NCBI GenBank assembly: GCA_039930045.1
Contig: JBDSQB010000006.1
Span: 1 to 64,000, forward strand
Length of the DNA stretch: 64,000 bases
Source of the DNA: Chthoniobacterales bacterium
GTDB lineage: Bacteria; Verrucomicrobiota; Verrucomicrobiia; Chthoniobacterales; DASVRZ01
Reading direction: 5' to 3'
Below the pieces are notes generated by a model. It did not search any database, was not told the DNA's origin, and saw only the letters and a list, made by a program, of their open reading frames with translations. How positions within the stretch are numbered: position 1 is the stretch's first letter; every line of letters begins with the position of its first letter. Both the position numbers and the translations under genes were made by a program. Of the stretch, positions 1 to 24,336 are shown piece after piece.

Positions 1-4381
<4,381 letters not shown>

Positions 4382-4385
<4 letters not shown>

Positions 4386-6850
4386 GGCACGGAAGGGCGG
4401 GGGGCGCATGGCTGCGCTGTCAATGTGGCGGTGGCGGACGCGAGGCCGTCGGCGGTGGCGGTCAGTTTGATTTCACCGGCGTCGTGCGTGGATTGCACGA
4501 TGACCTGCGCCAGGCCGTTGAACAGGCTGCGCCGATCGCCTTTCTCTGGCTCGTGGCAGTTCGGATCGCCGTTGCCCACGCCGATGATCCGGCCCGGCCC
4601 GCTGATTGCGAAAGCCACCGCGAGGTTTGCCGTCGGCACAGGCCGCCCTTGCTCGTCCAGCGCCTCCACCGTCACCGGCAGGGCATCGCAGCCGTCGGCA
4701 GCGAGCGTTTTGCGGTCGGGTGCGAGTCGGAGTTTCACCGGCTTGCCGGTTGTTTCCACGACGTAACGCGCAACTTCGCGGCCATCCTTTTTCGCGACGG
4801 CTTCCAGCCGGCCCGGTGCGTAGGGCACTTGCCAATCCACCATTTGAAATGGATCGACTTTCTTTTCTTCGATGAGCTTGCCGTTGAGCGAAAGCGCGAC
4901 GTGATCGGCATTGCACAAGGCCATCACCCTGATCGGCTGGCCTTCCTTGCCGGGCCAGTTCCAGTGCGGCACAAGCGTCAGCACCGGTTTGTTTTTCACC
5001 CAGTGCGCCTGTCGGACGTAGAAGTCGGTCTTCGGGAAACCGCAGAGATCCATCGCGCCGAAGAACGACCCCGCCGACGGCCAGCCGAAAGGCGTGGGTT
5101 CGCCGCGGTAATCGAAGCCCGTCCACGAGAAGCCGCCGGCGAGGCGCGGACGCGTGGCGATGGCCTCCCACGAATTGCGGGCACTGCTGCACTTGTCCCA
5201 GCCCGGGTAAACCTCATCGTAGGATGTCACGATGAACTTGGAATAATCGGTGGAGTATGCTCCGCGCGTCATCACCTGCGAAGTGTCTTCGGTGCTGATG
5301 ATTGGCTTGTCCGGATAGGCGGCGAGAATCTTGTCATACTCGCCCGCCTGATAGTTGATACCGACGACATCCATCGTCCAAGCCGCGTTCTTCGGGTTGA
5401 CCTTGCCGTCCCAGCCCATCTGGCCCTTGTTCTGCGCGCCAGTGGTGGGCCGGGTGGTATCGAGTCGCTTGACCACTGAGTTCATGACGCGCGTCATCTC
5501 CATGCCTTCCTCGTTGATTTCGAGCGCCTCCTCGTTGAACAGACTCCACAGGATCACACTGGGATGATTGCGGTCACGGCGCACCAGCCATTCGAGTTGT
5601 TTCAAGTATTCGGGCGACGCGTTGAAATGCCGCGTCTCATCCATCACCATCATGCCGAGGCGATCACAAATTTCTACCAGCTCCCGCGACGGAGGATTGT
5701 GCGAGGTGCGATAGGCGTTCGATCCCATCTCCTTCAATTTGCGGATGCGGAACTCCTGAATCGAATCCGGCACGGCCACGCCGACTCCGGCGTGATCTTG
5801 GTGATTGCATGTGCCCTGCAACTTGAGCGGCTGGTCGTTGAGAAAGAAACCGTTCTTCGCGTCGAAGCGGACCGTGCGAAAACCGCACGTCGTGCTGACG
5901 ACGTCCACCGGCTGGTTGTCACTCAACACCGTCGTCCGCACTTCATACAGGTTCGGATGCTCAACCGACCAGAGCTGCGGCGAGTTCGCTGGAATCGAAA
6001 GTTTCGCCACCGCTTGATCCATCGGCACAATGTTCACCGATGCGGATTTGCCGGCGGCGATTTTCTTTCCGGCGGAATCGAACACGCTGATTTCCACCAT
6101 CGCCGAAGCCGCGTTCGTTCCGGTGTTGCAGAGCGTGACCTCGGCGGGAATCGTCCACCTGCCATCCGCGCTTTTCACCGGGTTGGCATAAACACCATCC
6201 GTGACGACATGCACCGGGCTGCGTTTGACGAGCCAGGTGTGCCGATAGAGGCCCGCGCCTTCATACCACCAGCCTTCCATCGCCTCGGCATCCACGCGGA
6301 CGGCGATGGTGTTCTCGTCATTGCCGTAGCGCGCCATCGGCGTGACATCCGTGTGGAATGACGTGTAGCCACAAAAGTTGTGATGCACCGGCGTCCCGTT
6401 AAAATAAACGGCGCAATGCGTCGCCACTCCGTCGAACTGCAATTCAATGTTTTTGCCTCGGTCGGACGGATCGAGCTTGAAGGTGCGACGATACCAACCA
6501 ATGCCGCGCGGACGATAACCCTGCTGCTTAACCGCCTTGGAATCGAACGGCTGTTCCACCGCCCAATCATGCGGCAGGTTTACTTGCTGCCAGCCCTTGT
6601 CATCGAACCCGCGAGCAGCCGCGCCCCAGGTGTGTCCGGCCTTCGCACCGCTGTGAGTAATATCCGGGCCGTAGAGCGCGACACCCTGGCCGCCGGGAAA
6701 TGAATCGAGCGGAATGTCTCCGAGATGAAACCGCCAGTTTTCATCGAGCGAAAGCTGTTCGCGCGGTGCTGCGGCCGTCGCAGCTTGCGCGGCTAACCAC
6801 ACGGTGCAGGCGCTGATGCCGATAAGACGGAGCAACCGGGAGTTCCTCAT
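4382..6850 (-). CDS. GH2 beta-galactosidase-type enzyme
   Basis: 822 residues, exported (signal peptide MRNSRLLRLIGISACTVWLA onward). Order: sugar-binding jelly roll (about 30-215, with NLPHDWAVE and GIGWYRRTF), immunoglobulin-like domain, TIM barrel with CNHQDHAGVG and RTSHNPPS, then two C-terminal Ig-like domains of the DUF4982/invasin type. The acid/base is expected at E440 in WSLFNEE and the nucleophile at E521 in ISTEDTS. Probably removes beta-galactosyl units such as those on xyloglucan side chains or pectic galactan; other GH2 specificities are possible. Only 3 bases separate it from the next upstream GH2. Its C-terminal Ig domain is uninterrupted (GVGNGDPNCHEP then RSLFNGLAQ), unlike that of the paralogue ending near 13.46 kb, which carries an inserted domain at this point. 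Confidence 0.92.
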
Positions 6851-6853
6851 TGG

Positions 6854-9745
6854 TCAACGGGTTTGCACCACAATAGTCGTTCCCTTCAGGCCGTCGGCCT
6901 CGGCTGTGAGCGTGATTTTGCCCGCTCCACCGTTCGGCCGGAGAATGGCGAGACAACGGCCTTCGTAGGTTTTGCGAAGCGGCGCATGGAAACTGGAGGC
7001 GTCGTTCGGCGCGGAACTGCCGGTGGCGGCGAGTTCGCCTGCGCCGGTGATGGTGAAGCGAACCGGAATCGCGGCGGTGGGAACGCGGTTGCCATTTCGG
7101 TCCACCACTTCAACCGTCACGTAGGAAAGGTCGTTGCGGTCGGCGCGAATCGTGGAGCGATCTGCGGTGAGCCGGATTCCCATTGGTTCGCCCGCAGTGC
7201 GAAGAACGGTGCTGGCAACCTGCTTGCCGCCGGTCAAACCGATGGCGAGAAGCTCGCCGGGTTGGTAAGGCACATCAAACCTGGCCGTGAGTTTGGTCGC
7301 CGCAGAAACCTCTTTTTCGCCGATCACTTTCCCGTTGAGTTCGAGGCGCACGCTTTCGCAACGCGAATAAACCGCCACGTGCATCGACTTTCCTTCGCGG
7401 CCCGGCCAATTCCAGCTCTGCGTCTCATCCGGCCAACCCCAGTTGCTGACGCGCTCCCACACGCCCTCCGGCATCGGCGCGTGAACCATCATTTCAATCT
7501 GGCTGCGACGCCAGACCACATCGCGGTAGTAAGACTGCGGCTTCTTGAAACCGCACACGTCAATGTCCCCGCACCAGGCGTTATACCACGGCCACGGCAT
7601 GAGGAAGTTGTCCTTCTCGTTGCTCGGCGTGCTGTGTCCGATTCCCGATTCACCGAAGTAGTCCATCGCTGTCCAGACGAAGTCGCCGATGATGTAGGGG
7701 TGCTTCTCCACCAGCGACCAGTAGTCGAAGAAGCCCTTCGGATACGATTCGCTGCCATACATCACGCGCTTGGGATTCCGGGCGTGGTCGGATTCATATT
7801 TCTCCGGCAGATAATTGTAACCGCCGATGTCGAGATGCGTGAACGCGACGTCGGAGAGCGTGTCCCAATTCTTCAAGACCTCGCCCCAGTCCGAACAGAT
7901 CGCCTGTGTAATCGGGCGCGTGGCGTCGTACGAGAGCACCGCCTCGCGGAGCATCTTCGCGGTCGCTTCGGCGCGGAATTGTTCGGGGATTTCATTGCCG
8001 ATGGACCACATCACGACGGAGGGATGATTGCGGTCGCGCCGGACCATTGAAGCCATGTCGCGCTGCGCCCAATCCTTGAAATAGACGCTGTAGTCCTGCC
8101 CGTTCTTGCCTTGCTGCCAGCAGTCGAACGCCTCGTCAATCACCAGCACGCCCAGCCGGTCGCAGGCATCGAGAAACGCGGGCGACGGCGGATTGTGGCT
8201 GGTGCGAATGGCGTTGAATCCGTTCGCTTTCATCAGCTCAACACGGCGCTCCTCGGCACGATCAATCGTGGCCGATCCGAGCGGGCCGTTGTCATGGTGC
8301 ATGCAGCCGCCCTTGAGCTTGAGCATCTGGCCGTTGAGCCGGAAGCCGTTCTCGGCGTCCACTTCGATTTTGCGAATACCAAAACGAGTCGAAGTCTTGT
8401 CCAGCGTTTTGCCAGCAGCGGTGATTTCAACTTCCGCTGAATACAACTCCGGCGAATCCGGCGACCACAGTTTTGGCGAACGCAGTTCCAACGACTGCTC
8501 CACCGTGCGCGTTTCGCTGCCGGAAAGATGCAATTTGCTTTCGGTGGTTTGAACCGCCTTGCCTTTGGAATCCAGCACACGCGTGCGCACCACCACGTCG
8601 GATTCGGCACTGCCGTCGTTGCGAACTTCACTCGCAATCTTCACGACAGCTTTGTCTTTTGAAACTTCCGGCGTTGTTACGAACACGCCCCACGTCGGCA
8701 CATGAATCGAATCGGTGACGGTTAGCCACGCGTGCCGATAAATTCCCGAGCCGGAATACCAGCGGCTGTTTTTGCCCTCGTTGCGAACGCGCACGGCGAT
8801 GACGTTTTCCTCGCCCGCCGGTTTGAGGTGCGGTGTCAGGTCGAATTCAAACCCGGTGTAGCCGTAAGGATGATTGCCGAGAGGCTGGCCGTTGATCCAG
8901 AAATCGGCGTTCATGTAAACGCCATCAAAGCGCACCGCGACGCGCTTGCCCTGCTCCGCCGACGAAAGCGTGAAGTGTTTGCGATACCAGCCCGTGCCGC
9001 CCACGACGTGACCGGTGTATCCGCCTCCCTTGGTTTCAGCCGTGTCGAATGGGCCGACGCGAATGGACTTCACGCCCGCTTCCACAATGCCGCCGTTGTT
9101 GAGCTGATCGAACACACGCACCGCGAGCACATCCGAACCGTCGCCGCGCACGAGTGAAGCCGGGACGCGGTAATGCCGGGGCACGTCCCACGCGATTTGA
9201 AAGTTGGGCGGAAACGAACCTGTGCCGCCGATGCGTTCGCCGTTCAGAAACGTCTCATCCACGTCGTCAATGCAGCCGAGCAGAAGGTCGAAGTCCTTGC
9301 CCTTGAAATCGGCGGGGATTTCGATGCGGCGGCGAAACCAGCCATAGACTTTGTCGTCTGTATAATCCGAATGGTGCTCCCAATTGTCCGGGAGCGTGAC
9401 GGTCTGCCAGCCGCTGTCGTCTAGCTCTCGGGCCTTCCACACGGCGTCATCGCCTTTTTGAAACCGCCACTCGCCCGGCACGACCGACAATTCCAAACCC
9501 GGGCCTTCGCGCGGCGGCAAATCTTCAATACTCCAATCATGCGGCACATCGAGCGCGCGCCACCTGGAATCATCAAACGCCGCTGCTTCCGCGCCCGGCG
9601 CATCCGCGCGCAGAAAACGCCAGCCGGAATCGAAGGAACAGTCACGGATGTCGGCGGCGGAGTCGGCGGCAAAAGCGTTGCAGCCGGTGCCGGCCACGAG
9701 GGCCAACAGCGTGATTCCAACTGAAAACAAAACGATCTGCTTCAC
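6854..9745 (-). CDS. GH2 beta-galactosidase-type enzyme with a second jelly roll nested in its N-terminal domain
   Basis: 963 residues from a GTG start; an ATG 8 bases upstream is out of frame. The export signal ends near VAGTGCNAF; a lipoprotein cleavage site there is possible but weak. The GH2 sugar-binding domain starts normally (GWRFLRADAPG, LDVPHDWSIED), is interrupted at about residue 82 by a complete extra jelly-roll module (GEWRFQKGDD to VGPFDTAET, about 85-236), and resumes with GTGWYRKHF. The barrel carries CMHHDNGPLG, RTSHNPPSP, the acid/base E585 (SIGNEIPEQF) and the nucleophile E666 (MYGSESYPK). The upstream GH51 gene ends 8 bases before its start, so both belong to one operon. 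Probable beta-galactosidase; exact linkage unknown. Confidence 0.9.
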   Translation of the reverse strand: MKQIVLFSVGITLLALVAGTGCNAFAADSAADIRDCSFDSGWRFLRADAPGAEAAAFDDSRWRALDVPHDWSIEDLPPREGPGLELSVVPGEWRFQKGDDAVWKARELDDSGWQTVTLPDNWEHHSDYTDDKVYGWFRRRIEIPADFKGKDFDLLLGCIDDVDETFLNGERIGGTGSFPPNFQIAWDVPRHYRVPASLVRGDGSDVLAVRVFDQLNNGGIVEAGVKSIRVGPFDTAETKGGGYTGHVVGGTGWYRKHFTLSSAEQGKRVAVRFDGVYMNADFWINGQPLGNHPYGYTGFEFDLTPHLKPAGEENVIAVRVRNEGKNSRWYSGSGIYRHAWLTVTDSIHVPTWGVFVTTPEVSKDKAVVKIASEVRNDGSAESDVVVRTRVLDSKGKAVQTTESKLHLSGSETRTVEQSLELRSPKLWSPDSPELYSAEVEITAAGKTLDKTSTRFGIRKIEVDAENGFRLNGQMLKLKGGCMHHDNGPLGSATIDRAEERRVELMKANGFNAIRTSHNPPSPAFLDACDRLGVLVIDEAFDCWQQGKNGQDYSVYFKDWAQRDMASMVRRDRNHPSVVMWSIGNEIPEQFRAEATAKMLREAVLSYDATRPITQAICSDWGEVLKNWDTLSDVAFTHLDIGGYNYLPEKYESDHARNPKRVMYGSESYPKGFFDYWSLVEKHPYIIGDFVWTAMDYFGESGIGHSTPSNEKDNFLMPWPWYNAWCGDIDVCGFKKPQSYYRDVVWRRSQIEMMVHAPMPEGVWERVSNWGWPDETQSWNWPGREGKSMHVAVYSRCESVRLELNGKVIGEKEVSAATKLTARFDVPYQPGELLAIGLTGGKQVASTVLRTAGEPMGIRLTADRSTIRADRNDLSYVTVEVVDRNGNRVPTAAIPVRFTITGAGELAATGSSAPNDASSFHAPLRKTYEGRCLAILRPNGGAGKITLTAEADGLKGTTIVVQTR

Positions 9746-9752
9746 GATTTCA

Positions 9753-11681
9753 TCAGCGGGTTTTTAGTTTAAGAACCACAATGCTGCTGGGCGGAAGGGT
9801 GTGGGTAAAAACACGTTTGACACCGTTCAAGGTCGTGGTGACAGGCGCGACTTTTCGCGGCTGGCTTATGGAGTTGGTCTCCTCGGGATTGGCCGCCAGC
9901 GTGATCACCATCACCTTCGATTCAAGGGAGCTAACGCCCTTGATCTCAATCGGCAGCGATTGCGGTGTCAGCTCCGGGTTCACCAGCTTGAGAATGATTT
10001 CGCCGGTCTTGCTGTCACGCGTGGCGCTTCCCTGGACCGGGGTTTCCATCGGTGTGACCGGCAGAATTTCGTCGCCCAGATTCCGGCTGAACATCTGAAA
10101 TGCGTAGTAGCTCGGCGAACCGAAATCCGAAAGCGCGTCATAGCCGATGAGGTTAGGTCGCCACTGGTAAGCGCCGGGATTCACATTCGCAAACAGTGGC
10201 GCGTAGCATTGCATTTTGATGATGTCCGAGTTTCGCTCCATCGCCGCCATGAACACGGCGTCGCCAATGGCAGCCTTCATCGAGGGCGTGGGCGGCAGTT
10301 TTTTCGCAGCCGCATCCCAGGGTCGCGCTGACGCATCTTCGTGCGCCGCCCATTCGCCGACAAAAACGTCCGGCCCCTTGCGGTCCATCTGGGCACCGTA
10401 ATCGCGCGACTTTTTGATGAACTCGTCCGTGGAGCTGTAGTCATGATAGTCACCCATGTCGGGCTTGCGCCCATCGTGTTTCCCCCACGGAACAGTCGAA
10501 ATGAGCTTGATCTGAGGATACTTTGCCTTGATGGCGTCGTGAAATTGCGCATAGCGGCCATCGTAAGTCTTGGCCTTGTCAAAGTCGTCCTCGTTGCCGA
10601 TCTCCACGTAGGTCAATTTGAACGGCGCGGGATGCCCATCCTTGGCCCGCCGCGCGCCCCAAGTCGTGTTCGTGTCGCCGATCACATATTCAATCTCGTC
10701 CAGCGCCTCCTTCACGAACGGCTCAAGCTCAGGCCCGGCTTTGATGTAATCGCCCTGGAGGGAATAACCGGCATAGACCGCCAAAACCGGCTCGGCTTTC
10801 ATGTCTTCGCACCATTGGAGGAACTCGAGCAGCCCCATGCCATCGCTTGAACGATAGCCCCAGCTACCGGCGTGGCCGGGCCGGTCTTCCAGCGGACCAA
10901 GCGTCTTCTGCCACGGAAAGCGGTCTTCAATACGTGGTCCTTCGACATAATTGCCGCCGGGAAAACGCAGGAATTTCGGATTCAGATCCACGAGCATTTG
11001 CATGATGTCCTTGCGCAGTCCGTTCGGACGGTCCTTCCAGGTCGGCGGGAACAGCGAAACGAGACTAAGCCAGACTGTTCCGGGGCGATCCGTGGTGATC
11101 TGGAAATGCGCTTTGGCGGTGGGGGTGACGTTGCCGGTTTTGAGTGTTACCTGGAATTTTTTCCACTCCGGTGCGACGCCGGATATTTTTTCCGAGGCGT
11201 AAACTGTGCGGCCATCCTCGCTCGCGATTGAAACCGTTAAGGGTCCCGAGAAACCCGCTTCCGCCCGCGCCCACAGCGACGCGCGATACTGCGTTTTCGG
11301 TTGCACGGGAATTCCCCAGTAACCGCCGTTCGCAACGCCCGCAGGGTTTTCCTTCGAGGCTTGAGAGACCGTGAGGCGAAGGCTCGTCGTGAGCTTGTCA
11401 TTCACGGGATTGGCCGTGTCGAGCGCAATGGTCGCGGCTGCCGTGTCGTTCGCCACCACGGACCAGTGAACCGGCGCCTTGGCGTCGTCCAGGAAAGCGC
11501 GGTTTTGAATCAGCTCCGCATAAAGACCGCCGTCGTAGGAGTGGTTAATCTCCTCAGTCATCAATCCGTAAAGCTTGGGACTGACCTGACCCTTGGAACT
11601 GGTCGTATCAACGGTGAAGGAAGGCCCGGCAGCAAACGCTGTGGAGGCTATGAGAGTTACGAGCGCGGGAAGTAAACGCAT
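9753..11681 (-). CDS. GH51 alpha-L-arabinofuranosidase
   Basis: 642 residues, exported (MRLLPALVTLIASTAFAAG). Releases arabinofuranosyl residues from arabinan, arabinoxylan or arabinogalactan. The N-terminus SPKLYGLMTEEINHSYDGGLY and a CBM4/9-like insert at about residues 65-210 are characteristic of the larger GH51 enzymes. The barrel contains KFLRFPGGNYVEG, the acid/base E364 in VEIGNEDDFD and the nucleophile E443 in FVGEWAAHE. A C-terminal beta-sandwich follows (EIILKLVNPE). ATG 11681 is chosen over an in-frame TTG at 11705 because the signal peptide begins there. It sits between GH39 (35 bases upstream) and GH2 (8 bases downstream). Confidence 0.93.
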   Translation of the reverse strand: MRLLPALVTLIASTAFAAGPSFTVDTTSSKGQVSPKLYGLMTEEINHSYDGGLYAELIQNRAFLDDAKAPVHWSVVANDTAAATIALDTANPVNDKLTTSLRLTVSQASKENPAGVANGGYWGIPVQPKTQYRASLWARAEAGFSGPLTVSIASEDGRTVYASEKISGVAPEWKKFQVTLKTGNVTPTAKAHFQITTDRPGTVWLSLVSLFPPTWKDRPNGLRKDIMQMLVDLNPKFLRFPGGNYVEGPRIEDRFPWQKTLGPLEDRPGHAGSWGYRSSDGMGLLEFLQWCEDMKAEPVLAVYAGYSLQGDYIKAGPELEPFVKEALDEIEYVIGDTNTTWGARRAKDGHPAPFKLTYVEIGNEDDFDKAKTYDGRYAQFHDAIKAKYPQIKLISTVPWGKHDGRKPDMGDYHDYSSTDEFIKKSRDYGAQMDRKGPDVFVGEWAAHEDASARPWDAAAKKLPPTPSMKAAIGDAVFMAAMERNSDIIKMQCYAPLFANVNPGAYQWRPNLIGYDALSDFGSPSYYAFQMFSRNLGDEILPVTPMETPVQGSATRDSKTGEIILKLVNPELTPQSLPIEIKGVSSLESKVMVITLAANPEETNSISQPRKVAPVTTTLNGVKRVFTHTLPPSSIVVLKLKTR

Positions 11682-11715
11682 TGTGTTGTTTTCTATTGTT
11701 TGCAAAAAGCGCCTC

Positions 11716-13344
11716 TTACCGCTGCGGCTTAAGCGTGATCATCACCGCGTCGTTTTCGCGGAGGTCGAACTGCTGCTCGAATTTTCCGTCGCCCCCGATC
11801 TCGACTGTGCGGGTCTCCAGCGGCGCACCGCTGTTTTTGGATTTGATCTCGGCGACCTGCGCCTTCGTAAGTTGCGCCGGCGCGCCCATGTCCCGATACG
11901 TTGCGTAAGGGTCATTGACACGGTAGCCGGCCTTGTAGGTCTCCATCGTATATTTGCCCTTCGGAACGTTCGCCACGCTGAGCGTGACTTTGCCCTTCGG
12001 CTGTGACGGCAGATCGCGTTTGTAGAAAACCTGGTTGATCATGTTTTTGGCCGGAAAGGTGTAAGTGAAATCCCAGACCAACGCCTCCACGCCTCCATCG
12101 TTGTCGGTGCAAATCCACGAGGAGGGATCGCTGCATTTCAGCTCCGTCGGACCGAGCCGGTTCAAAAACTGATATGCGAAATACGCTGACTTTTTGATGT
12201 CCTGGTAATTCATCAGGCCGAAGCCGCCGTGGAATGCCTCCCAACGCGGACCGGGCTCCTCAAAGATGTCGCTGAATGTCCAGTAAGACATGGAATCCGG
12301 GGAGTCACCGCATTTCCTGAGCTTGTCGAGAATGTAGGCCGCGCTGTGATAGCTGTCGTGCATCGGATCAGTCGGCGTATAGGAGGAACTCCACTCGGTG
12401 AAATGCATCTCCAGTTTTGGAAACGCGGAGTCCTTGATCTCCTGACGCGAACGCTTCACCTCGCCATAAATCGAGTCCGGGTTCTTTGAGAGCGCCGTGC
12501 CTGCAGTGGCGGTTTCATCCAGAAAACCGCTCTCGGTGCCGTAGGTATGCGTGGATACAAAATCCACCGGCACGTCGTTTGTCTTGCAGAAGTTGATGAA
12601 CTCCGGAATCCATGCGCAACCCGCCGTCGCCGGGCCTCCGGTCCGATAGGCCGGGTCAACGGATTTCACGGCGTGCGCCGTGGTCGCGTAGAGCTTGAAG
12701 TATTCGGCCCGAGCGCCAGGAACCCACTCCTCATAGGGCTTTTTCCCGGGATTTCCCATCCAGAAGCCATCGAGATTTGGCTCATTCCAGACTTCAAAAT
12801 ACCACGAGCGCACCTCGTCGGCCCCATATCGCTCGGTGCAATGCCTCACAAAGGCAGCGATGAACGCCTCCCATTTCGCATAATCCTTCGGGGGCGTCAC
12901 ATTGCCGCGCCACCAGAAGATCGTCTGGGAACCGCTGGCGAGCGCCGACGGCATGAAGCCCAGCTCGACGAACGGCTTCATGCCGATGCTTTGCAGGAAA
13001 TCGAAGAGCTCGTCGATGTATTGCCAGTTATACTCCGGCTTGCCGTTGACCTCACGGTAAACGCCCATGTCATCCGTGAACAATCCGTGCATGCGAATAT
13101 ACTCAAAACCACATTCGCGGTGGACGATGGCCAATTGCCGCTGCCAGTCGGCGCGTAGTCCTTCATTCGCGCGGCCTGCGCCAACGCAGCGCTTGAACAT
13201 GGTATTCAGTGGGCCGCCTACTTGTCGCAGATCGGCGGAGACGGTCCTTTGCTTGGGCATATTGTCATTTCCGGCAGCCAGTCCGCTGCCGCCGGCCAGC
13301 AATGTCGCCGCGCAGAGGAGGAGTGAAAGAATCGTTTGGTTCAT
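11716..13344 (-). CDS. GH39 beta-xylosidase-like glycosidase
   Basis: 542 residues, exported (MNQTILSLLLCAATLLAGGS then GLAAG). GH39 enzymes cleave beta-xylosides, alpha-L-iduronides or, in some clades, arabinose-containing side chains. The barrel begins VSADLRQVGGPLN with YIRMHGLFTDDMGVY; the acid/base is E188 in FEVWNEPNLDGFW and the nucleophile E317 in MHFTEWSSSY. The C-terminal beta-sandwich ends VMITLKPQR. The ATG at 13344 gives the signal peptide; a longer frame to 13401 would run through the palindromic upstream site. This is probably the first gene of the minus-strand unit that continues to the left edge: a GTTACCGTCAC palindrome lies 58 bases before its ATG. Confidence 0.88.
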   Translation of the reverse strand: MNQTILSLLLCAATLLAGGSGLAAGNDNMPKQRTVSADLRQVGGPLNTMFKRCVGAGRANEGLRADWQRQLAIVHRECGFEYIRMHGLFTDDMGVYREVNGKPEYNWQYIDELFDFLQSIGMKPFVELGFMPSALASGSQTIFWWRGNVTPPKDYAKWEAFIAAFVRHCTERYGADEVRSWYFEVWNEPNLDGFWMGNPGKKPYEEWVPGARAEYFKLYATTAHAVKSVDPAYRTGGPATAGCAWIPEFINFCKTNDVPVDFVSTHTYGTESGFLDETATAGTALSKNPDSIYGEVKRSRQEIKDSAFPKLEMHFTEWSSSYTPTDPMHDSYHSAAYILDKLRKCGDSPDSMSYWTFSDIFEEPGPRWEAFHGGFGLMNYQDIKKSAYFAYQFLNRLGPTELKCSDPSSWICTDNDGGVEALVWDFTYTFPAKNMINQVFYKRDLPSQPKGKVTLSVANVPKGKYTMETYKAGYRVNDPYATYRDMGAPAQLTKAQVAEIKSKNSGAPLETRTVEIGGDGKFEQQFDLRENDAVMITLKPQR

Positions 13345-13400
13345 CGAGCGAGTATGTAGGTCGAAATGGTGGTTATCAAATGACCTATCCATTGAACTCA

Positions 13401-13416
13401 TGTGACGGTAACATCA
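13401..13416 (-). promoter_or_regulatory. Candidate operator upstream of the GH39-GH51-GH2 unit
   Basis: The minus strand reads TGATGTTACCGTCACA. Its core GTTACCGTCAC (13412-13402) is an 11-base odd-centred palindrome with one mismatch, and it lies 58 bases before the GH39 start codon. The same core type (GTTACTGTAAC) lies exactly 58 bases before the small secreted protein gene at 33093. Inferred to be the binding site of a local sugar-responsive repressor or activator that is encoded elsewhere. Confidence 0.45.
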
Positions 13417-13458
13417 GACCTAGGCCTCGGACTAATCTTCCTTGAGAGTTGCCGATTC

Positions 13459-16326
13459 TCAGGGCACGGATGGACGAGACTTGCTGGGTTGCGTTTTCAC
13501 TGTGACCGTTGCCGCAGGGAGGCCGTCGGCGGTGGCCGTCAATTTGAATTCGCCTGAGTCGCGTGTGGATTGGACGATGATTTGCGCCAGGCCGTTGAAG
13601 AGGCTGCGCGACCACGGCTGCGTGGCGGGTTTGCCGATGATTTCCACGGTCACGTTCGGATTCAGCCCACCCAGCGCACCGCCGTTCAGACAGCAAACCG
13701 CGATGAGATTGTCGCCGGGGCGAAGGAACTTCGTGATGTCGAACGCCGGCTTCGCGTCCCAGTCGTGCGTCTCGCCGACGTATTGGCCGTTCACGAAATA
13801 CCAACCCTCGTCGTCACAGCCGGCGAACTGGATTTGCACGCCCGTGCCGCTCAAGTCTTCCTCGGTCAGCGTCAGATGCGCACGGTAAATCGCCGCCGTG
13901 TTGTCAGTCGTAATCGTGGAGGATTCGCCGCCTTTAGCTGGGAGCGTGTTCCAACTGGAGTCGTCGAAATTCGCCATGTATTCCGGGACGGAACTGGTGC
14001 TCCCATGATCTTTCGTCACCTGCCAACGCCACTCGGTCAATGCAATCTCCCGCACGGAAGGGTTCGAGACAAACGTGTCTGGCTCATGGCAACTCGGGTC
14101 GCCGTTGCCCACGCCGATGATTTTGCCGGCGCCTTCGATGGCGAAGTTGATCCTGTTCTGCGCCACTGGAACAAAGCGACCTTGCGCGTCATACGCCGTC
14201 ACGGAGAACACCGCCACATCCTCGCCATCGGCGTTGATGGTTTTGCGATCCGGCGTGAGTTGAATCTTCGTCGCGTCGCCGGTCGTTTCGACCTTGGTTT
14301 CGGCGATGACTTTGCCTGCGGCATCAAAGCCTTTCGCGCTCAGAGTGCCCGGCGTGTATTTCACCTTCCACGTCAGCTTGGAATTTGGCTTCATCGCCTT
14401 CCTGCCGAGCGTCTCGCCATTCAGGAACAGTTCGACTTCCTTGCAATTGCTCAACGCGTCCACGCGAAACTCCTGGCCTTCGCGCCCGGGCCAGTTCCAG
14501 TGCGGCAGGAGATGCAGCACGGTGTCGGTGGTCCACCAGGCTTGATAGTAATAGAAGTTGTCCTTGGGAAAACCACACATGTCGAGAACGCCGAAGTGCG
14601 AGTTGATGTTCGGCCAGGCATACGGCGTCGGCTCGCCGCGATAATCAAAACCCGTCCACACGAAACCGCCGGAGAGCCACGGACGTTCCGCGAACCAGCT
14701 CCACCACGTCTCGGAGTTGGTCACCCATTGGTTCGGCTTTTCGTCGTAAGCCGCCACGTGGCCGCGCTCCCGGCTGCTCTCATAAATGCCGCGCGTGCTG
14801 GTGGCGCTGGATTGTTCCGTGCCGACGTTCGACTGGAGCGGATGTTTGGCGTGATACTTGTCCATATCCGGGCCGGGATGATAATTCCAGCCGCGCACTT
14901 CGATGACGCTGTTGATGCCGCCAACGGTGTCGCCCTGCGGCGCGGGATACGTCACGGGCCGCGTAGGGTCGAGGCGCTTGACGTAGTTCTGCATCGTGCG
15001 CGCGGTGTTGCGGCCCTGATCATTGCTTTCCACGGTGCCCTCCTCGTTGCAGACGCTCCAGATGATGATGCTCGGATGATTGCGGTCGCGCCGGATCATC
15101 ACGTCCCATTTCCGCATGTTTTCCGAATCGCTGCCGAGCAGACGGTTTTCGTCCATGATCAACATGCCGAGCCGGTCGCAGGCGTCGAGCAGTTCCGGCG
15201 TGGGCGGATTGTGCGACGTGCGGATGCCGTTGCAGCCGAATTTTTTCAACTGGTTGATGCGGAACTCCTGCAACGCATCGGGAATCGCCGCGCCGACGCC
15301 CGCGTGATCCTGGTGATTGCAGACGCCGTGAATCGGGCAAGGCCTGCCATTTAACAGAAAGCCTTTGTCGGCATCGAAGACCGCGGTGCGGATGCCGAAC
15401 ACGGTTTCCTTTTCGTCCACCACTTTGCCATCCACCGAGACCGTGGTGACGAGCTTGTAGAGCTGGGGCGATTCCGGCGACCACAGCACCGGCGAGGAAA
15501 CTTTCGACTGCAACTTCAGCGTGGCCTGCAACCCGCCGCCGACGGACTGCGTTCCCTTGAATTGCGCGACGGATTTTCCATCCGGCGAAATGACTTCGCA
15601 GTTCACCTGCGCGTTGGCGGCAGTGGTGAGCGTGTTCAGCACGTCCGCCTCGACGTGAATCTCCGCCTGATCCGACGGCACGTTGTCCTTGAACTGCGAG
15701 TAAACGAAAATCCCGTCCGGCGCGATGGCGACCGGAGCGCTTTTCTCCAACCAGGCATGGCGGTAAATGCCCGCGCCTTCGTAGAACCAGCCCTCGAACT
15801 TCGTCGCGTCCACCTTCACCGCGACGACGTTAGGCTCACCATACTTCACCACGTCCGTGATGTCCTCGTGGATCGGGTAATAACCGCCCTCGTTACGGCG
15901 GACGAGCCAGCCGTTGACCCAGATGGTCGCGTCACGATACACGCCGTCGAACGTGAGCCGGATGCGCTTGCCTTCGTCCTCCTTCGGCAGCTCGAACGTG
16001 CGGCGATACCAGCCGATGCTGTTGGCCTCGAATCCCGGCCCGAGCGCCTTGTAGCCATGATTCTTGTCGGCGCTTTTGTCGAACGGCAGTTCGATCGCCC
16101 AATCGTGCGGCAGATTCACCGTGCGCCACGTCGCGTCGCTGAAATGCTTTTCGGAAGCCGGCCCGGCGTTCGCGCCCGCCTTGTCCAGCCGCAACGCTTT
16201 CGGCCAGTCATCGCCCAGATGAAATTTCCAGTTGGCGTCGAGCGAGAGACGTTCGCGTGGTGATTCGGCAGCTGAAAGTTGCGCGACGGAAAGCGCCGCC
16301 CAGACGCAGGCAATAATGGAGCGCAT
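13459..16326 (-). CDS. GH2 beta-galactosidase-type enzyme with a jelly roll nested in its C-terminal Ig domain
   Basis: 955 residues from ATG 16326 (MRSIIACVWAALSVAQLSAA signal peptide); an in-frame extension to 16434 lacks such a signal. Canonical GH2 order: NLPHDWAIELPFD, SIGWYRRTF, Ig domain, barrel with CNHQDHAGVG, RTSHNPPTP, acid/base E428 (SVCNEEG) and nucleophile E504 (VGTEQSS). Near the end, where the paralogue at 4.4 kb reads straight through, about 150 residues (about 753-900, EWRWQVTK to NVTVEIIGK) forming another sugar-binding jelly roll (ANFDDSSWNTL, FAGCDDEGWYFVNG) are inserted between CHEPD and RSLFNGLAQ. Likely beta-galactosidase with added glycan binding. Transcribed from its own upstream region (16327-16539). 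Confidence 0.9.
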   Translation of the reverse strand: MRSIIACVWAALSVAQLSAAESPRERLSLDANWKFHLGDDWPKALRLDKAGANAGPASEKHFSDATWRTVNLPHDWAIELPFDKSADKNHGYKALGPGFEANSIGWYRRTFELPKEDEGKRIRLTFDGVYRDATIWVNGWLVRRNEGGYYPIHEDITDVVKYGEPNVVAVKVDATKFEGWFYEGAGIYRHAWLEKSAPVAIAPDGIFVYSQFKDNVPSDQAEIHVEADVLNTLTTAANAQVNCEVISPDGKSVAQFKGTQSVGGGLQATLKLQSKVSSPVLWSPESPQLYKLVTTVSVDGKVVDEKETVFGIRTAVFDADKGFLLNGRPCPIHGVCNHQDHAGVGAAIPDALQEFRINQLKKFGCNGIRTSHNPPTPELLDACDRLGMLIMDENRLLGSDSENMRKWDVMIRRDRNHPSIIIWSVCNEEGTVESNDQGRNTARTMQNYVKRLDPTRPVTYPAPQGDTVGGINSVIEVRGWNYHPGPDMDKYHAKHPLQSNVGTEQSSATSTRGIYESSRERGHVAAYDEKPNQWVTNSETWWSWFAERPWLSGGFVWTGFDYRGEPTPYAWPNINSHFGVLDMCGFPKDNFYYYQAWWTTDTVLHLLPHWNWPGREGQEFRVDALSNCKEVELFLNGETLGRKAMKPNSKLTWKVKYTPGTLSAKGFDAAGKVIAETKVETTGDATKIQLTPDRKTINADGEDVAVFSVTAYDAQGRFVPVAQNRINFAIEGAGKIIGVGNGDPSCHEPDTFVSNPSVREIALTEWRWQVTKDHGSTSSVPEYMANFDDSSWNTLPAKGGESSTITTDNTAAIYRAHLTLTEEDLSGTGVQIQFAGCDDEGWYFVNGQYVGETHDWDAKPAFDITKFLRPGDNLIAVCCLNGGALGGLNPNVTVEIIGKPATQPWSRSLFNGLAQIIVQSTRDSGEFKLTATADGLPAATVTVKTQPSKSRPSVP

Positions 16327-16539
16327 GAACAGACAGCCTTTCAATCGGGCAAAAACGCGCGCTGCTGGAGTGGTTCTTACTATCCTGGCTATGGGCTTCA
16401 AAGTGCTAATGTAGAACTTCGATGTCATGTTCAAGTATTTGAAAAAGTGTGTTGCGGAGTGGATTGGAGGACTAGGTCATCTAAAGAAAAATGGGCGCAA
16501 TTGCGCCACCCACTGTGAACATTCGTGGCGAAGTCATCA

Positions 16540-18064: not shown

Positions 18065-21000
18065 TCACCAACTGACGACCCGGTAGAAGCGTTTTCCTTG
18101 GGCGCCCCCGCCAGTGTCGGTGACCTGCTTGGTGCCGCCGTTGCCGGCGATATTGTCCTGCGGCACGCCGTTGGTCTGCACCGTGGTCCATGAGCCGCCT
18201 TGCAGCGTATCGGAACGCTCCGCGCGGTAGGTTTTACCCGACACACTCGGGAAACTCAGCACGAAGTCGTTTCCGCTCGCTTGTATCTGGGTGATCTTCA
18301 GCGAACTCGACGAGTCGTTCGGATTCGTTCCCGCCGCAAATTCCTGCGCGTTGGTCATGCCGTCCCCGTCGGGATCCGCATTGGGATCCTGGCCGAGCGT
18401 GTTGAATTGCTGCAATTCCCACGAGTCGCCCAGGCCGTTGCCATCGCGGTCAACGCCGGGTTCGGGCAGCGCGCCAAAGTAGAAATCCGCCCCACCTTCG
18501 TAGAGGCCCGTTGCGGTCGTATCCGCCGAACTCGGTCCGATGGTGGTCGCGGCGGGACTCTGGAATTTATTGCCGATGGCGTTGATCGCGTGAAGCAGCG
18601 AGAGATTGCCGGCGGGAAATGTCGGGCTCACGCTGGTGATCCACGTATAGTTCGACGGCGTGAGGCTCGGGGTGAGCACGCGCAGGAAGAGATTCGAGGT
18701 GTCGGTCGTCAGGGTGATCGGCTGCTGGGTCGTCCCCAGTTGCGCCCAATAAAGCTGGCCATGGTAGCCGCGGAACTCCGGATAACCCCACTGCGTTCCG
18801 TTGACGATGTTGTTAGCCGCCTTGTAGTTCACCCCGATTTCCTGACCTTCCAGGCGATTTTTCCACACGCGATACGGACCCTGCCCCAGCCAGCGCATGC
18901 CGGTGACATTCGCCTCGGGATAGTCGAAGGTGACGCCGAGCCACGTCTGCGTGCCGGTGAGCGTGTAGCGGTATTTCAGATTTACCCATCCGTTCGGATG
19001 GATACGCCACTGGAAGCCGTTGCTTGCGCTGGTAACATCATTCATCGTCACGACATAATCCGCGCCGTCGAACCCGTGGGTGACGCTCGACGTCGTCCAG
19101 GAGCCCGACACGGGGCGAGGCCCGTTCGAGAGCGACACTGGCTGGCCGGAGACAGTCACTCCATTCAGTCTCCCGGTGCTGAGATCGAAGGCCCATGTGC
19201 GTGTGCCGTTGGTGATGCTGAGCACGCTGCCGTTGACACTAGGGGTAAGGCCGCTGGGCGTGCCGGCAACGTTCACGATGCGGTTGTGCACCTGGGCCAC
19301 GCTGTGCAACGGCCATGTCCAGGTATAAATCTCGCGCCCGAAGGTATCTTTCGCTGTCACGCGCAGCGCATCGTAGCTGGCCACGCTCGCCGGGACGCCG
19401 AGCGTGAGCGTGCCCGACGCACCGGAGGCGACCGAAGGTCCGGCGAATTCCACACTGCTTTTGCCGACGATGAAGCCGCTGTTCTGCACCGCCGTCGAAT
19501 CCGTCGGGTCCGGAAACCAGCCGAGTTTCCAGCTAAACGTGCATTGGTTGAGATTGGTGAAGTCGAACCGGTTCTCGACCGCGAGGGAGCCGGTGAAGGT
19601 GGCCGGGTTTGGCGCGGTGATTTGCACCGGGCTCCACAAGGCTTTCACACTGTAATAGCTGGCCTCTTTCTCGCGATACGGGCCGACGATGCCGTCGGCC
19701 GCGTCGGCACCACTCACGCTGACCGCGCCGCCCTGGTCGTCGCGCACAATGCCTTCGTCGATGAGCGACCAGATGAACATGCCGCCGCCGTTGGGCGCGG
19801 TGCGCATCGCGTTCCAATGATCCGCCAGGCCCGCACCGCCGCCGCCATCGAAAAGAGCGTGCTGCATCTCCGTGGGCATGAACACCGGCTGGCCCGCGCC
19901 GAGATAACTGATGAAGGTGTCGTAAGGGGCGTAGTGGTGCGTGCGGACGCCACCAGTGAGCTCAGTGGGCCAGTTGGCCGGGTGCAGCACCTTGCGATTC
20001 TGCGGATCCCAGAGCCCGAAGTCGTCGTCCAAGGTTCCGTTGGAACCGCCTTCATTGCCATTGGCCCACGCGAAAATGCTCGGGTGGTTCACATCCCGAA
20101 TCACCATCTCGCGCACGAGGCCCGGCCCGATGATATTGTCGTAAGCTCCCTGCCAGCCAGCCAGTTCGTCGAGCACGAGCAGGCCAAGCCGGTCGCACTC
20201 TTCGAGGAAATGTTTCGAAGGCGGGTAATGGCTCATCCGCACGGCATTCATGTTCAAGCTCTTCATCAGCTCGATGTCGGCGATGCTCACCGCGCGGCTG
20301 GTGGTGCGTCCGTCCGTCGGCCAGATCTCGTGCCGGTTTGCACCGCGCATCACGATCTTCTTCCCGTTCAACGTGAACCCGCTGTTCGCGACGAAGCCGA
20401 TCGTGCGAAAGCCGATGGTCTCGGTGCGCGAATTCAGCACCGCCGCGCCGTCGCGCAACTCGATGGTGAGTTTGTAGAGGTTCGGGAACTCGGGCGACCA
20501 CGGCTGCGGGGTGGGCAGGGTGGCGGAAAGAACGACGCTGGTGGTGCCGGTGGCCGCGGCCTGGGTGAACTCTGCACCGAGTGGGTTGTTGTTCATGTCC
20601 GTCACGCGGGCCGCCACGGTGCAGGGGCTGGTCACGCCGGAGAGAAACGAACTGACGCTGATCTGCCCGTTGGCCTTCGCGTCCACGGCGACGCGTTCGA
20701 TATTCGCGGGCGGGCGGGCTTCGAGATACACCGGCCGATGGATGCCGCCGAAAACCCAGTAATCCGCCGTCCGCTCGGCATCGTTCACGGACGCGTTCGC
20801 GGAGACTTTCTTGACGGTGGCTTCGAGCAGATTGCTCGCGCCGTAGTTCAGGTTATTCGTCACGTCGTAGCTGAACTCGTAAAAGCTGCCCTGGTGAAGC
20901 GCGCTGGTGGATGTTGCCGCCTGGCCCGCGCTGACGCCGCTGCCGATGGCGGAATACAGGTCTGTGGCCGTGCCGCCGGAGTTTTGCAGGGTGAGAGTGC

Positions 21001-23308
21001 CGCCCGCACCCGTGACCGGCGCGACGGTCGTGCCGCTGGAAGCGGTGTTCAAATTCCACTGATACAGCGGCGTGGGTGGCGTGGCGCTTGCGCCGAGACC
21101 GGATGCGCGCACCGACTCGAGCTGGGCCTGGCTGAGGGCGCCGTTGAAGATGCGGAAGTCGTCGCCCGAGCCGTCGAAGGCACGGCCGCGATCGCCGCGG
21201 TTCAGGAAATAGGCGAAAGCGTTCGCACCAAACGGCACCGATGCGCCCGCCCCGTAAGTGGCCGTGGTCACCGGGGTTCCCAAGGCACCGGATCGGTTTC
21301 CCACATAAATTTTCACCTGGTTCGAGCCCAGCGTGGAATCGTAGGTCACCGCCACGAACGTCCAGTCGCTTCCGCTCAGTACGTTGGGGGTGGCGATCAC
21401 GCCGTTCCCGGAATCGGTATTCACCTTGAACTGGAGCGTGCGGGTGTTGCCGCCGGAGTTGTAGGCGGCGAGATAGACGCCATTGCCGTTTGCATCGTAG
21501 TTCGCAGTCGCGCCGATCAGCATGAGCCGGGGGAAGCGCCCGTCGGGTATCGTGCTGAAGTCCGCCTCGGGCTTGATCCAGCAGGCCAGCGTGAAGCTGG
21601 TGAGCGTGCCGAGGTTCACGTTGCCGGTGGCGCTGGCGGCTATGCCACCGCCCTGCCCCATCGAGGTGGAGGCGGCGTTGTTGAAGGCGCGGTCGTTGGC
21701 CAGCGGTGTCGGGGTCGAGACCGTCCCCCCGCCGGGCGCCGCGCCGTTGATGCGTGTCTCGGTGTCGGTCATCGAGCCCTCGTAGACGAGGAATATGCGC
21801 TTGCCGGCCCAGTTGGCGGGCACGTTGAACGTTTTCTTATACTCGCCATACTCGGTGGTGTTGATGTTGCCGTATTCGTAGGTGCCGAAGCCCTTCGTCT
21901 CCCAGCACGACGGCACGGGAATCGTCGTCCAGACGCCTGCATTCCGCCCGGCGGACACGCGAAAATCCCACGGCACGGTGTTGTCCTTGTCGGTGCCGGA
22001 GAGATACTGGACCTCATTGGTCGTCGCGACGCTGGGGGCGACCAGTCGAACCGTCTCATTGTCCGCGATCCCCGTCACCTGGTAAGTGCCGCCGCCGGTG
22101 AAGGTGGCGGTCACAACGCCGTTACGCACCACGTTGACCGTTTGGCCATTCATGTCGGCCGTGTCCACCGTGAGTTTGCCGGTGACCGCGTAGGTGCTCT
22201 GCAGATGGAAGGTGAAGGTCTTCACTCCGGGGGTTAAGGAATAGAGGAGCGAGCCCGCCCCGTTCTGCCCGTCGCCGACGAAGAAGCTGAATTTTTTGGT
22301 GCGGACGAAGCCGGCGACAAACAGGTTGTCGCTGGCATTCAGCACGGGGGCGGCAATCGAGCCATTGAGCACGCGGCTGAGATACCACGACAGGCCCGAC
22401 GCCTGCTGGTCGGTCGTCAAGGTGGTATGCGGCCAGTATTGCTGCTCGCTGGCGTCATTGATTCCATTGCCGTTGAAATCCTGATAGGTCCCGGCATTTC
22501 CCGTATGCAGAGTGATGTTATTGAATTCCCCGGTAAAACTCGCGGCGGCGATCGCATTGTTCCGATAGCTCGTGTCGTTGATCGGCGGACAAGTGGGCTC
22601 GTCGCCGTTCACGAAGAAATGAATCTCGCTGTAGGGATTGTTCCGGGAGGCGAGATTCGAGGCCCTCGCCATGTAGCGCGAGGTGATCAGCGCGGTCGCG
22701 CCGTTCGGATTGCCCACGTCGGTATCAAGCTGCGTCTTGTGATTGCTGGCGGCCCCATTGTTATACCAGCCATTGACCAGGTCGTAACCGTAGTCCGACA
22801 TGCCATAGAAGGCTCCCCCCGTGCGGAACAAGTCGGGGAATTTCGTGAGGGCCGACATGGTGTTTCCTCCTCCGCCTGAATAGCCGGTGATGTTGATGTT
22901 ATTCGGGTTGATCAAGCTGCCATACTGGGTCTTCGCAGCCTCCACGGCGTCGAGGATATCGTAAATCTCAAGCCCTCCGGAGTCGCGGACGCCGCCGGAA
23001 CCCTCCCGCCCGCGCATGGCGACTGTGACGACAAAGAACCCCTGATCCCGAACCTGCTGGGCATTGGGCCTTACCTGATCGAAAAGACCTGACGGCCCGG
23101 AATACTGATGCAGCATCACCATCAGCGGCGCGTTGGAGACGGCGTTGTTATAATTCGCCTCCATCTTCAGATCGAGGGGGCCTCCCGCATCCGTGCTGAT
23201 GGTGGACTGATACGTCTTGATCTCGGTAATGTTCGCCGCGGCGGCGATTCCCGTCGTGACGATAAATGCTGCGGCGGTGACAATGGATTTCAGGGAGAGG
23301 GAGTTCAT
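18065..23308 (-). CDS. Giant secreted fusion: alpha/beta-hydrolase esterase + GH2 with nested LamG + TSP3/C-terminal module
   Basis: 1747 residues from ATG 23308 (MNSLSLKSIVTAAAFIVTTG then IAAAAN); a longer frame to 23437 runs through debris of another gene. Domains: alpha/beta hydrolase at about 25-340 (MLHQYSGPSG, nucleophile elbow GYSGGGGN, HFFVNGDEP), beta-sandwich linker, then a GH2 sugar-binding domain from about 430 (PVPSCWETKGFGTYEYGN) that is interrupted at about 530-800 by a LamG/concanavalin-like domain (FTLACWIKPEADF, DDFRIFNGALSQ) and resumes at YEFSYDVTNN. The GH2 barrel has RGANRHEIWPTDGR, RMSHYPPSK, acid/base E near 1084 (ANGNEGGS) and nucleophile E near 1144 (MPTEMQHA), followed by the large beta-galactosidase small-chain domain. 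The tail is a TSP3-like calcium repeat (DPDGDGMTNAQEF) plus the shared YRAERSDTL...RFYRV module. Predicted bifunctional deacylating galactosidase; the activity pairing is inferred. Confidence 0.85.
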   Translation of the reverse strand: MNSLSLKSIVTAAAFIVTTGIAAAANITEIKTYQSTISTDAGGPLDLKMEANYNNAVSNAPLMVMLHQYSGPSGLFDQVRPNAQQVRDQGFFVVTVAMRGREGSGGVRDSGGLEIYDILDAVEAAKTQYGSLINPNNINITGYSGGGGNTMSALTKFPDLFRTGGAFYGMSDYGYDLVNGWYNNGAASNHKTQLDTDVGNPNGATALITSRYMARASNLASRNNPYSEIHFFVNGDEPTCPPINDTSYRNNAIAAASFTGEFNNITLHTGNAGTYQDFNGNGINDASEQQYWPHTTLTTDQQASGLSWYLSRVLNGSIAAPVLNASDNLFVAGFVRTKKFSFFVGDGQNGAGSLLYSLTPGVKTFTFHLQSTYAVTGKLTVDTADMNGQTVNVVRNGVVTATFTGGGTYQVTGIADNETVRLVAPSVATTNEVQYLSGTDKDNTVPWDFRVSAGRNAGVWTTIPVPSCWETKGFGTYEYGNINTTEYGEYKKTFNVPANWAGKRIFLVYEGSMTDTETRINGAAPGGGTVSTPTPLANDRAFNNAASTSMGQGGGIAASATGNVNLGTLTSFTLACWIKPEADFSTIPDGRFPRLMLIGATANYDANGNGVYLAAYNSGGNTRTLQFKVNTDSGNGVIATPNVLSGSDWTFVAVTYDSTLGSNQVKIYVGNRSGALGTPVTTATYGAGASVPFGANAFAYFLNRGDRGRAFDGSGDDFRIFNGALSQAQLESVRASGLGASATPPTPLYQWNLNTASSGTTVAPVTGAGGTLTLQNSGGTATDLYSAIGSGVSAGQAATSTSALHQGSFYEFSYDVTNNLNYGASNLLEATVKKVSANASVNDAERTADYWVFGGIHRPVYLEARPPANIERVAVDAKANGQISVSSFLSGVTSPCTVAARVTDMNNNPLGAEFTQAAATGTTSVVLSATLPTPQPWSPEFPNLYKLTIELRDGAAVLNSRTETIGFRTIGFVANSGFTLNGKKIVMRGANRHEIWPTDGRTTSRAVSIADIELMKSLNMNAVRMSHYPPSKHFLEECDRLGLLVLDELAGWQGAYDNIIGPGLVREMVIRDVNHPSIFAWANGNEGGSNGTLDDDFGLWDPQNRKVLHPANWPTELTGGVRTHHYAPYDTFISYLGAGQPVFMPTEMQHALFDGGGGAGLADHWNAMRTAPNGGGMFIWSLIDEGIVRDDQGGAVSVSGADAADGIVGPYREKEASYYSVKALWSPVQITAPNPATFTGSLAVENRFDFTNLNQCTFSWKLGWFPDPTDSTAVQNSGFIVGKSSVEFAGPSVASGASGTLTLGVPASVASYDALRVTAKDTFGREIYTWTWPLHSVAQVHNRIVNVAGTPSGLTPSVNGSVLSITNGTRTWAFDLSTGRLNGVTVSGQPVSLSNGPRPVSGSWTTSSVTHGFDGADYVVTMNDVTSASNGFQWRIHPNGWVNLKYRYTLTGTQTWLGVTFDYPEANVTGMRWLGQGPYRVWKNRLEGQEIGVNYKAANNIVNGTQWGYPEFRGYHGQLYWAQLGTTQQPITLTTDTSNLFLRVLTPSLTPSNYTWITSVSPTFPAGNLSLLHAINAIGNKFQSPAATTIGPSSADTTATGLYEGGADFYFGALPEPGVDRDGNGLGDSWELQQFNTLGQDPNADPDGDGMTNAQEFAAGTNPNDSSSSLKITQIQASGNDFVLSFPSVSGKTYRAERSDTLQGGSWTTVQTNGVPQDNIAGNGGTKQVTDTGGGAQGKRFYRVVSW

Positions 23309-23329: not shown

Positions 23330-23440
23330 ATGTGGATGATAACGTAACGGTATCACCGTTGAGGACGTTGACCCCGCTGAAAGACGCGTTGTCAAAATTC
23401 CACACGCCACCCTGAACGAGAGCTGTGGCCGGGTCACTGA
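23330..23440 (-). pseudogene. Fragment of a PEP-CTERM/PATR-type surface protein
   Basis: The minus strand can be read as ATALVQGGVWNFDNASFSG then VNVLNGDTVTLSS, closely resembling the GVWDFNSAAFG...NGDTITLS segment of the PEP-CTERM protein near 17.2 kb. It has no start, no tail, and lies in a different frame from the short leader-bearing frame just upstream (23447-23752), so it is gene debris. Confidence 0.6.
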
Positions 23441-23446
23441 CCCGGG

Positions 23447-23752
23447 CTACAACGTCGTCATCCCGAGCACGGAGGTATCGCCGCTCAGGGAAATGGTTTC
23501 GTTACCGTTTACGCTCGACTGGTTGAACACCGCGGTATCGGTCGAAGTAGGCGCAACGCCCGTGGTGCCGCCGGTCGTGGCGTTGTCGGACCAATTGGCG
23601 CTCGTTTGCCAGGTGCCCGGGGTCGTATCCCAATAATAGATCGCCGCCTGGGCGGAATCGCCGGAGAAGAGGAATACGACCGTGGACGCGGTTGCAACGG
23701 CGACGGCGAAGCGGTTGCGGAGTTTGAGGGAGAAAGAGGGCTTGTATTTCAT
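23447..23752 (-). pseudogene. Truncated autotransporter-strand-type (PATR-like) surface protein, N-terminal part
   Basis: 101 residues: a signal peptide (KLRNRFAVAVATASTVVFLF, ending AQAA) followed by YYWDTTPGTWQTSANWSD and DTAVFNQSSVNGNETISL, the opening typical of long proteins with autotransporter-associated beta-strand repeats. It stops after one repeat at LGMTTL. Such proteins normally run for many hundreds of residues and end in an anchoring tail, so this is a 5' remnant. The next downstream debris (23330-23440) is out of frame with it. Confidence 0.65.
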
Positions 23753-23928
23753 CTTGGTTTTGAGGGGAGGAGGCTCAGTGCAAAAAATTTGATCGAACGG
23801 GATGGGAGGTTTTCATGGGAGCTTTCATATTGGCTCTGATTTGAGATTGTGCTCATAGGGATATTGGAGCTGTGATAAACATTCTCTGTTTGCTGAAAAA
23901 CTTTCAAAACATTCTGCCGTCGCCGTGA

Positions 23929-23951: not shown

Positions 23952-24002
23952 GTAAATCGGTCCATCTGTGGACATTATCAGCGATCCAAAGGCCTAATCT
24001 CG

Positions 24003-24272
24003 AAGCTGCTGGGCATTGGGTCTCACCTGATCGAAGAGCCCTGTGGACCCGGAATACTGATGCGTCGTCACCATCACCGGCGCGTTGGAGACGGCGTTAT
24101 TATAATTTACCTACATCTTCAGATCGAGCACTCCTCCCGCATCCGTGCTGATGGTGGACTGATACGTTTTGATCTCGGTAGTGTTCGCCGCGGCGGCGAT
24201 TCCCGTCGTGACGATGAGCGTTGCCGCGATGAAGACTGATTACAGGGAGAGAGAGTTCATTGGAGGAGAAAA
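24003..24272 (-). pseudogene. Decayed duplicate of the 5' end of the esterase-GH2 gene
   Basis: Read from the ATG at 24260 the minus strand gives MNSLSL, stop, SVFIAATLIVTTGIAAAAN, TTEIKTYQSTISTDAGG and further matches to the first ~90 residues of the giant protein, with at least two in-frame stops. DNA similarity to 23040-23320 continues a few bases upstream of the ATG, so this is a DNA-level duplication that has since decayed. Confidence 0.85.
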
Positions 24273-24336
24273 TGCGAATGAGCCTCGAATCGAGTTTACG
24301 ATCCTGACTAAAGCGGCTTCCCATTCTGACTATAGC

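Follow-up and report, generated by a model that had tools for sequence, protein, structure and literature searches.

We start from the removal of galactan from RG-I in B. thetaiotaomicron, where the galactan is taken off by BT4151, BT4156 and BT4160, and where the acetylesterase BT4158 deacetylates the RG-I oligosaccharides that BT4156 acts on (PMC8002723). The GH2 enzymes of the BT4156 type, known from the Bacteroides RG-I locus, are built of a jelly roll, an Ig domain, a TIM barrel and C-terminal beta domains, with catalytic glutamates in the barrel. All of these parts are found again in the protein described here, which adds to them an N-terminal esterase and a LamG domain inserted in the jelly roll. 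Its gene occupies positions 18065 to 23308 on the minus strand of the window (the whole stretch of 64,000 nucleotides that was analysed, from a Chthoniobacterales bacterium) and encodes 1747 residues from signal peptide to stop. The component domains are known, and their arrangement is new; in a literature search, for which subscription journals were mostly out of reach, neither the architecture nor permuted LamG inserts were found described.

The reading frame is continuous, with no stop between 23308 and 18065. An in-frame GTG upstream would lengthen the protein to 1790 residues; the ATG at 23308 opens a clear signal peptide (residues 1-24, 23237-23308), read directly from the sequence and having no lipobox, which agrees with the secretion proposed in an earlier note on this DNA. 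Searched against Pfam, the protein gives an alpha/beta hydrolase of the Peptidase_S9/S15 type (residues 59-195, with the Peptidase_S9 match at 80-175), a GH2_N match broken into two stretches, the GH2 Ig-like domain (879-968), the GH2_C barrel (973-1089) and a TSP3 motif (1645-1665). The domain order that the note had read from the letters is upheld.

A chain of this kind raises the question of whether two or three genes have been joined wrongly in assembly, and the note had named the esterase/GH2 border as the place to fear. Just upstream of the gene (23993-24278, minus strand) lies a decayed partial copy of its own 5' end, about 100 codons at 87% DNA identity with an in-frame TAA and TAG, which points to a former duplication; repeats of this type can lead an assembler astray. 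Against this, the uninterrupted frame and, above all, a complete orthologue in a separate metagenome-assembled genome make a wrong join hardly credible. The orthologue (1774 residues, L079:5818-11142, in the Opitutaceae MAG nzgw615, JAHFTG010000047.1) has the same domain order and the same nested insert. The two proteins are 88% identical in the esterase, 91% in its beta-domain, 84% and 89% in the two parts of the GH2 jelly roll, 86% in the insert, 80% in the Ig domain, 88.5% in the barrel and 83% in the GH2 C-terminal domains. The dN/dS ratio is 0.12-0.28 for each domain from the esterase to the GH2 C-terminus, 0.12 over the border itself (residues 420-455) and 0.23 for the insert as a whole. 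Free change is seen only at the two ends of the chain, in signal peptide and C-terminal module, with the TSP3 region intermediate. The identities and the low ratios mark the two proteins as orthologues under purifying selection, and since the same chain occurs in a different genome, the fusion is real and not an assembly join; the fear of a false border is thereby dispelled. We have high confidence in this architecture, that of a real, rare fusion protein conserved in two species.

We turn to the N-terminal enzyme. The alpha/beta hydrolase (residues 25-325, 22334-23236) is followed by a beta-domain of about 110 residues (326-435, 22004-22333) that is present in nearly all standalone relatives and belongs to the same module. 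In an alignment of 22 sequences Ser144, within the GYSGG elbow, and His294 are invariant and Glu237 is nearly so. The neighbouring Asp236 varies, which makes the glutamate the probable acid of the triad. AlphaFold models the hydrolase and beta-domain (residues 25-435) confidently (pLDDT 90.5, pTM 0.90) and places Glu237 after a late strand and His294 close to where the fold ends, the usual topological positions, so that the G-x-S-x-G elbow and triad of an alpha/beta-hydrolase serine esterase are both present in the predicted model. A Foldseek search of the PDB returns only generic relatives, S9-type hydrolases and lipases being the closest (PaL 8yzn, S9 peptidases, the Pf2001 esterase and a CE7 acetyl xylan esterase) with query TM of about 0.5 at most. 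The best PDB sequence match has an E-value of 3e-4, and no characterised close relative is among the matches. Pfam, NCBIfam and the PDB likewise yield only distant general matches and no specific carbohydrate-esterase (CE) family.

Across about 85,000 species genomes this esterase family is found at 28 loci, mostly in Planctomycetota and Verrucomicrobiota, with a few in Latescibacterota and Aminicenantes and one in Limnochordia. Apart from the window genome, the L079 esterase is the only one of the 28 that is fused to a GH2. The standalone secreted esterases of Verrucomicrobiota and Planctomycetota (L010/L091, 754 residues; L011/L097, 813 residues; L080, 503 residues) share the triad and are 45-61% identical to the window protein over the hydrolase and beta-domain; unlike it, they have no GH2. 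Two of them that were examined closely (L010 and L011) carry a separate LamG domain after the esterase, not nested as it is here. These standalone esterases, some without a further domain and some bearing a LamG or another tail, occur in varied neighbourhoods that include GH95, GH115, GH3 and GH28, and BT4156-type GH2 genes were not found adjoining them. As a clue to the esterase substrate these neighbourhoods are mixed and not decisive, and they give no pointer to RG-I.

The GH2 enzyme begins directly after the esterase module. Its sugar-binding jelly roll comes in two parts (residues 436-527, 21728-22003, flush with 29 GH2 relatives, and residues 804-868, 20705-20899, with Pfam GH2_N at 804-866 and the alignment of relatives), followed by the immunoglobulin-like domain (871-970, 20399-20698; PF00703), the TIM barrel (971-1240, 19589-20398; PF02836) and the C-terminal beta domains (1241-1590, 18539-19588), which align with relatives and give weak LacZ_4 and Bgal_small_N matches. 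The predicted acid/base Glu1086 (codon 20051-20053, minus strand) and nucleophile Glu1147 (codon 19868-19870) are kept in all aligned relatives. Jelly roll, Ig-like domain and barrel thus stand in the order of the GH2 family, with both catalytic glutamates conserved. The best NCBIfam model is that of the BT4156 exo-beta-1,4-galactosidase (NF049891, 1.8e-227), with a score of 757.5 bits that lies far under the equivalog cut-off of 1700 bits. The tryptophan that follows the acid/base motif GNEGG in most relatives is a serine here, and TEFLH has become TEMQH; the specificity may therefore differ from that of BT4156. The LacZ-type beta-galactosidases 3dec and 3bga of B. thetaiotaomicron share the fold (Foldseek 2.5e-33) at 17-18% identity over the structural alignment, and both lack the insert and the esterase.

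In a sample of 388 genomes from the phylum, close GH2 relatives (E <1e-80) turn up in 28. In the GH2 tree the window and L079 proteins pair as a clade (100/100), and L050, L055, L056 and L068 join them (90/97); a late gain of the insert is the simplest account of this placement. One close relative, a chain of 1587 residues in G414 (L111:3673-8436, minus strand), was considered as a second fusion and rejected: it has another N-terminal region, no esterase and no LamG insert. To the eye, this long region has passenger-like and fn3-like features.

The two parts of the jelly roll are separated by an insert of 276 residues (528-803, 20900-21727). All 29 aligned GH2 relatives are gapped at this point, reading 'NG..aG-P.HQGGFY' where the window protein reads 'NGAAPG-[276 aa]-HQGSFY', and a class-wide search of 384 genomes finds no second protein that matches both the jelly roll and the insert. 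The LamG domain was missed by hmmscan of the whole protein. PF13385 (Laminin_G_3) matches positions 21122-21631 (residues 560-729) with 59.8 bits against a gathering cut-off of 27.6, and the L079 insert with 52.6 bits (7.2e-14). The nesting of a LamG domain inside the GH2 sugar-binding domain, which the note had proposed, is in this way upheld. The note had also suggested structure prediction around the insert, and in the AlphaFold model of residues 430-1262 the pLDDT is mostly above 90 before and after it; the GH2 core is predicted to form intact around the insert. The LamG domain itself is modelled poorly (pLDDT about 30-79), with two insert sequences only to draw on.

The question then is how such a domain can sit in the loop of another. 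The LamG body (residues 535-741, 21086-21706) covers positions 92-277 of a profile made from 11 LamG proteins, which were collected with the insert as query and whose matches covered the body. It aligns with ordinary Laminin_G_3 concanavalin-A-like domains, for example L017, L018 and P0004 beside the L079 orthologue. In the standalone LamG proteins found with it a segment of the form '(L)Y.(w/f)nf...GvSG.a.d.aFnn' comes first and the body after it. In the insert this leading segment (PLYQWNLN...GSGVSA) is found after the body, within residues 742-794 (20927-21085), where the profile alignment gives positions 46-91. Unlike the ordinary domains, then, in which the N-terminal strand segment precedes the body, those of the window and L079 have a permuted order and are nested in an enzyme. 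Some 53 residues towards the insert's end could have been taken for a linker; the profile match identifies them as the displaced LamG N-terminus. Probable linkers to the GH2 are the flanking stretches 'GGGTVSTPT' and 'GQAATSTSA'.

When the insert is rotated through every position, the profile score has a single peak, with the start at about residue 743. The rotated order scores 139.8 bits against 121.9 for the native order in the window protein, and 139.5 against 121.0 in L079. None of 1000 shuffles of the tail reaches the score of the real one (138.3 bits, best shuffle 133.3), and the tail alone scores 13.5 bits in the window and 15.7 in L079 as compared to at most 10.8 in 1000 shuffles. Judged by its sequence, the LamG domain is circularly permuted, a feature that the note had overlooked.

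The same order might be produced if residues 742-794 were the start of a second, truncated LamG domain, left over from a tandem and not folding with the body, in which case there would be no true permutation. Large proteins with tandem LamG domains do occur in the window genome, and cutting a unit out of a tandem array is a usual route to such an order. The body, however, has no N-terminal segment of its own, in the window protein and in L079 alike the tail fills exactly the gap at positions 46-91, and the insert is conserved as a whole (the dN/dS given above), which leaves us thinking a tandem remnant unlikely. We prefer the true permutation, and expect with moderate confidence, from the profile match, that the displaced tail would fold together with the body. 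In the permuted order the new ends of the LamG domain lie close to each other, as would be convenient for a unit placed in a jelly-roll loop of the GH2. Going by how the strands of GH2 jelly rolls are ordered, we presume that this loop (from 'NG..aG' to 'HQGGF') lies on the side of the LacZ loops that reach the active site (Asn102, Asp201). Directly upstream of the orthologous fusion gene in L079 is a free-standing LamG protein of canonical order (L079:4442-5476, plus strand), the N-terminus of which is 41% identical to the displaced segment over 56 residues.

The chain closes with the TSP3 hinge and C-terminal module (residues 1591-1747, 18068-18538; PF18884), of which close copies exist elsewhere in the genome. 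The TSP3 and about 75 further residues (18068-18380) reappear, 56-69% identical, on a number of very large proteins (G000:C18:104459, C15:6819, C6:25808 and C11:13595), and the L079 orthologue has exchanged the module for another; it is perhaps a lineage-specific tail for secretion or anchoring. On the other side of the gene, the apparent start of an autotransporter-type secreted protein (MKYKPSFSLKLRNRFAVAVATAS..., 23440-23760, minus strand) ends in a stop just before it. A one-strand cluster at 1045-16434 (minus strand) holds a Putative esterase, a PDZ/beta-helix protein, GalA- and GalB-like GH2 enzymes, an arabinofuranosidase and a GH39; the protein at 2010-4409 (minus strand) combines a Pel9A-like beta-helix region and a C-terminal PDZ domain. 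With three further GH2 genes (two of them scoring above the GalA cut-off), a GH51-type arabinofuranosidase, the GH39 and the Putative-esterase gene, the neighbourhood is consistent with plant polysaccharide breakdown in general.

Combining this information, we arrive at a secreted, single-chain bifunctional enzyme, a deacylase and an exo-beta-galactosidase acting on a glycan that the LamG domain would bind near the GH2; we think this reading about evenly poised between right and wrong. By its sequence, the serine-hydrolase module with its beta-domain runs into a BT4156-like GH2 at the point where the mature part of such an enzyme begins. The hydrolase would take an acyl group, most likely acetyl, off a plant or algal glycan by way of Ser144-His294-Glu237, and the GH2, as a retaining enzyme using Glu1086 and Glu1147, would remove terminal beta-galactose while the LamG domain holds the glycan close by. 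Permutation, by bringing the LamG ends close, would allow the insertion without opening the jelly roll. The probable origin of the protein is that two secreted enzymes were fused and that a LamG unit, excised from a tandem array or from a duplicated LamG gene, was inserted. Joining a predicted esterase to a BT4156-like enzyme that is not a BT4156 equivalog would, by analogy, fit an RG-I pathway of the BT4156/BT4158 type. The xyloglucan that the note had named as substrate finds no support, the nearest named GH2 model being that of the RG-I galactan enzyme; a decorated plant galactan, both deacylated and degalactosylated, is our candidate at low confidence.

Alternatively, two independently useful enzymes may share a chain for co-export and anchoring only, each attacking its own bond or substrate within a mixed plant polymer, with the LamG domain as a non-catalytic adhesion module. 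The esterase does occur alone or with other tails in diverse neighbourhoods and not beside a BT4156-type GH2, the close relative in G414 has a different N-terminal accessory region, and the C-terminal module has been swapped between the two orthologues. Yet both species retain the domain order, the border and the nested LamG, and the border is under purifying selection; we hold co-export alone to be a conceivable, tentative explanation. Within the bifunctional reading, a stronger version would have the permuted LamG as a substrate-gripping wall at the mouth of the GH2 active site, with one chain deacylating and then degalactosylating the same glycan. This version is improbable as we judge it; if true, it would place the protein in a new class among bifunctional enzymes and would exemplify in nature how permutation can enable domain nesting.

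For the esterase module, which stands for an uncharacterised secreted family, the fusion to a named type of galactosidase is a first hint of a substrate class. What deserves most notice in the protein is the LamG domain, both permuted and nested. If it folds as its sequence implies, it shows that a binding domain can be inserted in a catalytic domain without harm once permutation has brought its ends close. Protein engineers permute domains for nesting by hand, and natural cases are useful to them.
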